DNA from: an uncultured Gammaproteobacteria bacterium
GTDB taxonomy: Bacteria; Pseudomonadota; Gammaproteobacteria; Pseudomonadales; Halieaceae
Assembly (NCBI GenBank): GCA_902519405.1
Contig: CABYJX010000002.1
Coordinates: 1 to 64,000 of the forward strand
DNA: 64,000 nucleotides
Direction: 5' to 3'
This document shows, piece by piece, positions 35,888-37,766 of this stretch. How positions within the stretch are numbered: the first letter of the stretch is position 1; every line of letters starts with the position of its first letter. The notes beneath the pieces were generated by a model. That model was not told where the DNA came from. It worked only from the letters and a program-made list of their open reading frames with translations, and made no database searches. The position numbers and the translations under genes were made by a program.

Positions 35888-36739
35888 CTAATTTAAAGCC
35901 AAGATTTTTTGCCGAACTTTTTCTATCGCCAGTTTTTCAAGTTGGCGTATACGTTCTGCTGAGACCCCATACTCTGACGCTAGCTTATGAAGGGTCGCCT
36001 TAGGTTCGTTTAGCCACCTTTTAACGAGTATGTCCCTGCTTCTCTCGTCCAGTTCGTTGAGAGCAAGGTGAAGAGCCTTTTTCTTTGAGTTGCTCAGATC
36101 AGACGATTCTAACAATTTCGCTGGATCTCCCCTGTGGTCCTCTAAGTAGAGCTGTGGGGCAATAGCCGCATCGCTGTCGTCAGAATGTGATGGAGCATCG
36201 AACGCGATATCAGTACCACTTAGACGAGATTCCATTTTAAACACTTCATCTACCTCTACTCCCAAGTCTTTCGCCACCATCGTAGCTTCTTCGACAGAGA
36301 GCCAAGATAAAGTCTGTTTCATTCGCCTTAGATTAAAAAATAGCTTCCTTTGAGGCTTAGTCGTAGCCACCTTGACAATGCGCCAGTTGCGTAAAATGAA
36401 TTCATGCATTTCTGCCTTAATCCAGTGCACGGCGAAAGAAACTAATCTCACTCCCTTTTCTGGATTAAATCTCTTTACTGCTTTCATTAAACCCACGTTG
36501 CCCTCTTGAATTAAGTCGCTTTCAGAAAGCCCGTAGCCTGAATAACTCTTAGCGATGTGAACTACAAATCTGAGGTGAGACATAACTAGTTCTCGAGCAG
36601 CAGCCACATCTCCTTCATAAAATAGCCGCTTAGTTAAATCTCGTTCCTCTTCTAAACTTAAAATTGGTATCCCGCTTACTGCCTGAACGTACGCGCCTAA
36701 ATTCGCTCCCGGGACCATCAGATGTTGATGCCAATTCAT
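35888..36739 (-). CDS. rpoH: RNA polymerase sigma-32 factor RpoH
   Basis: LVMSHLRFVVHIAKSYSGYGLSESDLIQEGNVGLMKAVKRFNPEKGVRLVSFAVHWIKAEMHEFILRNWRIVKVATTKPQRKLFFNLR RpoH box; adjacent to ftsX. Confidence 0.98.
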   Translation of the reverse strand: MNWHQHLMVPGANLGAYVQAVSGIPILSLEEERDLTKRLFYEGDVAAARELVMSHLRFVVHIAKSYSGYGLSESDLIQEGNVGLMKAVKRFNPEKGVRLVSFAVHWIKAEMHEFILRNWRIVKVATTKPQRKLFFNLRRMKQTLSWLSVEEATMVAKDLGVEVDEVFKMESRLSGTDIAFDAPSHSDDSDAAIAPQLYLEDHRGDPAKLLESSDLSNSKKKALHLALNELDERSRDILVKRWLNEPKATLHKLASEYGVSAERIRQLEKLAIEKVRQKILALN

Positions 36740-36775
36740 TCTATGTACCTAATTTTCTTAGAGTTTGCCGTAATA

Positions 36776-36802
36776 TTAGCACTCTTTCTTTGAGAGTGCT
36801 AA
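36776..36802. promoter_or_regulatory. CIRCE element (HrcA operator) upstream of rpoH
   Basis: TTAGCACTC-tttctttga-GAGTGCTAA: perfect 9-bp arms with 9-bp spacer, identical to the CIRCE consensus; 37 nt upstream of the rpoH start codon on the minus strand. Confidence 0.93.
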
Positions 36803-36822
36803 TTCATAATCGTAACCGGAAT

Positions 36823-36828
36823 ATTATA
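36823..36828 (-). promoter_or_regulatory. candidate rpoH -10 box (TATAAT on the minus strand)
   Basis: TATAAT about 20 bp upstream of CIRCE; TTGAGC at 36848-36853 is a possible -35 with a 19-bp spacer. Confidence 0.5.
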
Positions 36829-36842
36829 CGCTTGGTTGACTG

Positions 36843-37766
36843 TTATGGCTCAATCTGCGGAACATGTCTAATAACTGCGCCCCAAGCCCCTAAAATCCCT
36901 AAAACACCCCCCAAGACAGCGATATTTACCGCTTCCACCACTCTCAAACTTATAAACTTGTATTCACTTTGATAAGACAACAGAAGGGCATCCACCTGAG
37001 ATATTACAAGGGCCTCGGCGAAAATCACCAGATTCGAAGCTAAAACCCCACCACCAAAACCATACCACAGACCCATATATAGAAAGGGTCGGCGTAAAAA
37101 TGCATCGCTCCCACCCACCAGTTTAATTACAACAATCTCTTCACGACGATTCTCGATCGCCAATTTGACCATACTTGAGATCACAATAGCTGCGGCCAAA
37201 CCCAGAGAAATAGTTAAAAGAAAGATAATTCTGTACCCAAGAGCTAGGAAATTCTTGAGCCGTTCCAACCACGCATGATCAATAATTACATTGGATATCT
37301 CGGGGATCGCCAGCAATTGAGAACCAAGTGCCTCAGAATCTTCATAGGATAGATATGAATCAAGCGTTAAAAGTAGTGTTGCAGGAATAGGGTTTGTGTC
37401 TAACCTTAGTAGTAAATCCCCGAATCCACTATCCTCGCCTAGCTTTAGTAATGCGGCTTCCGCAGTTAAAAATTCAAGATCCTTTATTTGCTCCCAATTC
37501 TTGATTGATTCGGCTATTTGTCGCCCTTTTGATTCCGGTATTTGATCATCTAAAAATACTGAAAGACTAGGCTCGTAAATTACTTTACTAATCAACGATT
37601 CTAAGTTTTTAACAAGGAGGCTGCCGCTAATTGGAAAAGCTAAGGTCATAGCAATCAAACAACAGATGATAAAGCTACCAAAAGGCCTTGATAGTACCCT
37701 GGACAAGCTCTCCGCCGATGAAATTCTATGGTGAAAAATCCAGTTGTTAAATTTTAGGCGGAGCAT
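36843..37766 (-). CDS. ftsX: cell division ABC transporter permease FtsX
   Basis: FtsX topology; between ftsE and rpoH; C-terminal IAVLGGVLGILGAWGAV. Confidence 0.93.
   Translation of the reverse strand: MLRLKFNNWIFHHRISSAESLSRVLSRPFGSFIICCLIAMTLAFPISGSLLVKNLESLISKVIYEPSLSVFLDDQIPESKGRQIAESIKNWEQIKDLEFLTAEAALLKLGEDSGFGDLLLRLDTNPIPATLLLTLDSYLSYEDSEALGSQLLAIPEISNVIIDHAWLERLKNFLALGYRIIFLLTISLGLAAAIVISSMVKLAIENRREEIVVIKLVGGSDAFLRRPFLYMGLWYGFGGGVLASNLVIFAEALVISQVDALLLSYQSEYKFISLRVVEAVNIAVLGGVLGILGAWGAVIRHVPQIEP

Follow-up and report, generated by a model that had tools for sequence, protein, structure and literature searches.

A CIRCE element interlocked with putative rpoH promoter elements suggests HrcA control of the heat-shock sigma factor in Gammaproteobacteria

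Repression by HrcA and activation by sigma-32 are commonly presented as parallel arms of the heat-shock response, and in many bacteria HrcA controls groESL through its operator, the CIRCE palindrome. What, then, does a CIRCE element do when it lies directly in front of rpoH, the gene for sigma-32, as it does in the 64,000-nt stretch of uncultured Halieaceae DNA analysed here (the window)?

A motif search of the window returned a site at 36776-36802 with 0 mismatches to TTAGCACTC-N9-GAGTGCTAA, which was also the only match with three or fewer mismatches; dinucleotide shuffles of the window gave a mean of 0.01 CIRCE matches. The downstream ORF was identified as RpoH by TIGR02392 (Table 1), which bears out the perfect CIRCE that an initial annotation of this DNA had read in the rpoH leader. 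The distance from the element to the rpoH ATG, given there as 37 nt, is 36 nt by our measurement (A of the ATG at 36739), and a TATAAT said to lie about 20 bp upstream of the element is indeed found on the minus strand (36828-36823), 20 nt upstream. Upstream of rpoH, on the same strand, come ftsX, then ftsE, and then an FtsY-like ORF.

Table 1. Features at the rpoH locus of the window
Feature	Coordinates	Strand	Basis
CIRCE, HrcA operator (palindrome)	36776..36802	.	exact consensus; kept in relatives
rpoH, heat-shock sigma factor sigma-32	35888..36739	-	TIGR02392 equivalog, 392 bits vs cut-off 323
ftsX, upstream neighbour of rpoH	36843..37766	-	FtsX_Gneg, 245 bits vs cut-off 255
Place of relatives' sigmaE -35 (GGAACTT), here GTTACGATTATGAA, element lost	36803..36816	-	sequence comparison
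Upstream TATAAT, possible additional -10	36823..36828	-	sequence; not conserved beyond genus
Sigma70-like -10 hexamer TAATAT (CIRCE right edge TAA + flank TAT)	36773..36778	-	cross-set conservation, strand asymmetry; function inferred
-35-like TTAGCA (CIRCE left arm), 18 nt from -10-like hexamer	36797..36802	-	sequence; function inferred, weak alone

Searching the rest of the genome (G000, 60% complete) for the repressor gene and for further operators, as the initial annotation had proposed, revealed both: hrcA is encoded there (TIGR00331 equivalog, 315.7 bits; cut-off 197.2), and one other CIRCE with three or fewer mismatches lies 92 nt upstream of groES. The groES elements of congeners are less perfect (1-2 mismatches). 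Because most complete genomes of the window's family have two CIRCE places, the HrcA regulon of the family is probably groESL plus rpoH. That the family is Halieaceae is indicated by rpoH upstream sequences identical to those in records of Haliea, Chromatocurvus halotolerans, Sediminihaliea albiluteola and Halieaceae MAGs. A CIRCE before the hrcA-grpE-dnaK operon was considered and rejected: none was found there in the window's genome (L003, 1030-1180), and for about 31 hrcA genes, relatives included (L063-L092), the best CIRCE match within 1.5 kb was no better than in shuffled DNA, which suggests that HrcA does not control its own operon via CIRCE here. In many cases, the groES CIRCEs of the family (L034-L062) have CTTGAAA, a -35 form of sigma-32, no more than about 10 nt beyond them, and groESL may thus have an HrcA operator and a sigma-32 promoter in tandem.

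The rpoH site is no peculiarity of the window's organism. Among 113 genomes of the window's order with readable DNA upstream of rpoH, in which hrcA was scored in the same genomes and a CIRCE was called at three or fewer mismatches of 18, the element was present at rpoH in 81 of 81 hrcA-positive genomes versus 5 of 32 without detected hrcA (p ~2e-21, statistics that ignore phylogeny). When each family was represented by one genome, the counts were 16/16 and 2/29, respectively (p 2e-10). Four of the five hrcA-negative genomes of the order that have a CIRCE (G042, G052, G067 and G074) are 73-83% complete. In a sample of the whole class, which consists of the best-scoring rpoH genes rather than a random draw, CIRCE was found at rpoH in 68 of 74 hrcA-positive and 5 of 16 hrcA-negative genomes (p 9e-7), and the other six hrcA-positive genomes had no CIRCE at the rpoH copy that was read. 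CIRCE at rpoH is therefore the usual state in the sampled hrcA-positive Gammaproteobacteria, and neither of two outcomes that the initial annotation had named as evidence against HrcA control was what we found: hrcA is present in the genome, and relatives keep the palindrome. In three hrcA-negative genomes (G073, G107 and G111), a decayed CIRCE with 13 of 18 arm matches occupies the exact place after GAAC, which reads as decay following loss of the repressor. Given its conservation and its co-occurrence with hrcA, the rpoH CIRCE is best read as placing rpoH under HrcA control, and the suggestion that HrcA and sigma-32 are wired in series gains support from the presence of hrcA, the CIRCE at groES and a conserved rpoH site whose occurrence follows the repressor gene.

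Some genomes combine the site with an apparent lack of the repressor. Two members of one family (G191 and G318; L382 and L371) have a 15/18 CIRCE together with GAACTT at rpoH and no detected hrcA; either hrcA was missed in them or another factor uses the site. In a genome that is 99% complete (G210:C127, L380), the rpoH CIRCE is near-perfect and hrcA was not found, and its congener G330 has hrcA.

The DNA around the operator is conserved in a manner that points to a promoter. Upstream of rpoH, the family alignment has two islands of information content before the RBS, the first consisting of GGAACTTTT at -15 to -7 and the second of the CIRCE together with TAA, which opens its N9 spacer, and a T located three bases past the right arm; information content in the family is low upstream of position -16. 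In relatives, GGAACTT lies about 15 nt upstream of the CIRCE, and left arm and spacer together read TC-TNA, the TC of the sigmaE -10 being the end of the left arm, so that these sites (GAACTT, N15-16, TCTNA) are laid out like P3, the sigmaE promoter of E. coli rpoH. GAAC occurs 14 or 15 nt before the CIRCE in 42 of 44 genera, and GAACTT is matched at five or more of its six positions in 50 of 73 sites of the class sample. The T.A at the 5' end of the spacer is present in 37/44 genera versus 3/44 when read from the other strand, and since HrcA should see both spacer ends alike, this asymmetry separates promoter from operator.

A blind scan of genome contigs for GAACTT-N7-9-CIRCE led to the same gene: among the loci listed, at least 80, rpoH lay just downstream of 75, two had only ftsX in reach, two belonged to groES, and one had neither. 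These loci include Rhodocyclaceae, Methylophilus, Thiobacillus, Limnobacter, Aquabacterium, Chitinilyticum, Alcanivorax and Ketobacter, as well as Thioalkalivibrio, Methylomonas, Granulosicoccaceae, Arenimonas, Silanimonas, Catenovulum and one Legionellales MAG. The strict composite, with 0 mismatches in GAACTT, was detected in 49 of 274 genomes of the class, a count that underestimates the looser arrangement because no mismatch in GAACTT is allowed, and in none of the sampled genomes within the phylum but outside the class. On a Deferribacteraceae contig (L222, 2793-2832), GAACTT and CIRCE occur together, and neither rpoH nor groES was matched nearby.

In E. coli, GAACTT-N16-TCTGA lies between ftsX and rpoH and matches P3, a promoter transcribed by RpoE, i.e., sigmaE (PMC8103513). 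Most composite sites resemble P3 in lying between these two genes and in their GAACTT-N16-TCTNA geometry, but add a repressor site on the -10, whereas E. coli rpoH has no CIRCE (best site 7 mismatches) and the control genome of that species yielded no HrcA; the sigmaE spacing in Halieaceae is one base shorter than in P3. The rpoH gene of Shewanella oneidensis is also RpoE-dependent (GAACTT-N16-TCTAT) and shares the sigmaE input with the composite sites, but its promoter sequence, as printed, is without an HrcA site (PMC4336711).

A second set of promoter-like features occupies the right edge of the element. The TA(A/G) that ends the right arm of rpoH CIRCEs mostly has AAT, TAT or ACT after it, right arm and AAT forming TAxAAT in relatives, and TAxxxT is present at this edge in 73/77, 47/50 and 43/44 rpoH CIRCEs (three sets) versus 2/12 groES CIRCEs. 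The T three bases outside the right arm occurs in 43 of 44 genera, compared with 8 of 44 for the mirrored place. Among 50 sites of the class, A is replaced by G at arm position 3 in 15 left arms, yielding TTGGCA, and in two right arms, where the change would break the TA; even the decayed sites of G073, G107 and G111 keep TAGAAT or TAGACT. We propose that the right-edge hexamer is a sigma70-type -10 for which the left arm (TTAGCA or TTGGCA) would serve as -35; because TTAGCA is a weak match (4/6), in contrast to the strongly conserved -10-like hexamer, this sigma70 promoter remains a proposal. Neither the sigmaE elements nor the right-edge -10 were found in the flanks or spacers of groES CIRCEs. 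The rpoH site has the operator and the repressor family in common with HrcA control of groESL, but differs in its target, which is the heat-shock sigma factor, and in the promoter elements that reside in its flanks and spacer.

In the window's genus, for which readable rpoH upstream DNA was available from one congener only (G002), part of this layout is gone. The window has GTTACG where relatives have the sigmaE -35, and GAACTT is likewise missing from this place in G002; the arms are perfect in both genomes, with TAATAT at the right edge. A loss of sigmaE throughout the genus was rejected for G001 and G002, both of which have RpoE and a sigmaE-type promoter (GAACTT-N16-TCTAC) before rpoE, indicating that sigmaE itself has not been lost there. 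The RpoE proteins of G002 (L331) and G001 (L332) fall slightly short of the model cut-off (226-234 of 236 bits), and RpoE was not found in G000 at 60% completeness. In the simplest account, rpoH of this genus has dropped out of the sigmaE regulon and remained under HrcA control.

The genus has two candidate promoters at rpoH, the weak -35 with TAATAT and the upstream TATAAT. Were the latter the promoter, the CIRCE would extend from about +14 to +40 and HrcA would block downstream of the start, an arrangement that differs from the preferred one only in the place of the promoter. Although TATAAT is a perfect -10 hexamer and G002 has TATTAA at a similar place, it has no recognisable -35 and went unreported by a consensus promoter scan, and its surroundings are unconserved in the family, whereas both species of the genus retain the right-edge hexamer; we hold this geometry to be possible but rather unlikely. 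The initial annotation had located the operator between promoter and RBS; because the conserved promoter elements lie on or inside the CIRCE, and the upstream TATAAT outside the conserved pattern, the operator instead appears to overlap the promoter.

The placement of the start also bears on whether the inverted repeat works chiefly through a hairpin in the leader RNA of rpoH, affecting mRNA stability or thermosensing; a hairpin in the leader had been suggested as an additional role. A leader transcribed from the upstream TATAAT would fold an 11-bp hairpin (z = -2.6 relative to shuffles), but every CIRCE folds in this way, and in rpoH leaders the presence of the element follows hrcA and its sequence is fixed beyond pairing, being equal to the HrcA consensus. 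Moreover, the spacing of the conserved promoter elements predicts a start inside or just after the CIRCE, which would yield a leader without the hairpin, making this explanation improbable. More doubtful still is the idea that the left arm is retained as part of a sigmaE promoter and that HrcA is irrelevant at rpoH: the hrcA-negative genomes G078, G092 and G095 do keep GAACTT and a TCNNA-like -10 without a CIRCE, but the whole right arm is conserved only along with hrcA, and the window's genus, whose rpoE retains its GAACTT-N16-TCTAC in congeners, has a perfect CIRCE at rpoH without the sigmaE -35. Least credible of all is a chance or relic palindrome with no present function, in favour of which there is the draft state of the genome and nothing else, whereas the number of perfect copies expected from the window's base composition is about 1e-6 and G000 and G002 keep 18 of 18 arm bases despite differing spacers.

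We thus return to the reading that HrcA represses rpoH by way of an operator placed directly on the rpoH promoter, which we consider likely from the comparisons above; the arrangement would probably constitute a chaperone-sensing repressor on the master heat-shock switch. HrcA binding, repression, the start sites and the GroEL feedback at rpoH are what we infer. An HrcA dimer on the predicted operator would block RNA polymerase, its position covering the -35/-10 region of the proposed promoter and thereby imposing a steric block. HrcA is known from other bacteria to be kept active by free GroEL, and if the same feedback operates here, unfolded protein would occupy GroEL, HrcA would become inactive, and all CIRCE targets detected in the genome, namely groESL and rpoH, would be derepressed together, with sigma-32 then raising the remaining chaperones. 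A sigmaE promoter (GGAACTT-N15/16-TCTNA) would share these 27 bp in most relatives, their right end forming a sigma70-like -10 (TAxAAT), and rpoH would be transcribed by sigmaE, under envelope stress, or by the housekeeping polymerase only once HrcA is gone. In the window's genus, where the sigmaE -35 appears to have been lost, the repressor site and the right-edge -10-like hexamer would remain.

The initial annotation had allowed that such an arrangement might have been reported before, and this is correct for Geobacter sulfurreducens, in which a CIRCE at rpoH was predicted by Rodionov et al. (2004; PMC545781). That case is like the window in that the CIRCE at rpoH is perfect (there 51 nt ahead of the start codon), in the presence of hrcA and a groESL CIRCE, and in placing HrcA and sigma-32 in series, but it concerns a distant bacterium, is a single case in that paper, and has no described overlap with a sigmaE promoter. 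Another source, PMC3989490, concerns groESL. Within the open full-text literature (subscription papers and regulon databases being outside its scope), we found no description of the gammaproteobacterial generality of the rpoH CIRCE nor of an overlap of CIRCE with a sigmaE promoter. A 2003 study by Permina and Gelfand is said to treat heat-shock regulons in beta-, gamma- and epsilon-proteobacteria, and a 2007 study by Ueki and Lovley reportedly treats Geobacter RpoH; either may contain earlier reports. With this reserve, the gammaproteobacterial prevalence and the promoter interlock appear to be new, CIRCE at rpoH having already been predicted in Geobacter.

If most hrcA-positive Gammaproteobacteria have HrcA acting at the promoter of rpoH, the two arms of the heat-shock response would be arranged in series and would meet sigmaE at the same base pairs. 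This would suggest an origin for the E. coli arrangement, with the sigmaE promoter P3 but without HrcA, and would make the rpoH upstream region a compact promoter in which point mutations could separate cytoplasmic from envelope stress inputs in a laboratory strain. We give even chances to a broader proposal, namely that the rpoH promoter ancestral to the Gammaproteobacteria, Betaproteobacteria being counted among them, is a single module of about 45 bp comprising the sigmaE -35, the CIRCE with the sigmaE -10 inside and, where the right arm of the CIRCE ends, the sigma70-like -10. Through this module, sigma-32 synthesis would answer envelope stress and free GroEL at once, and E. coli P3 would be its remnant after the loss of HrcA.
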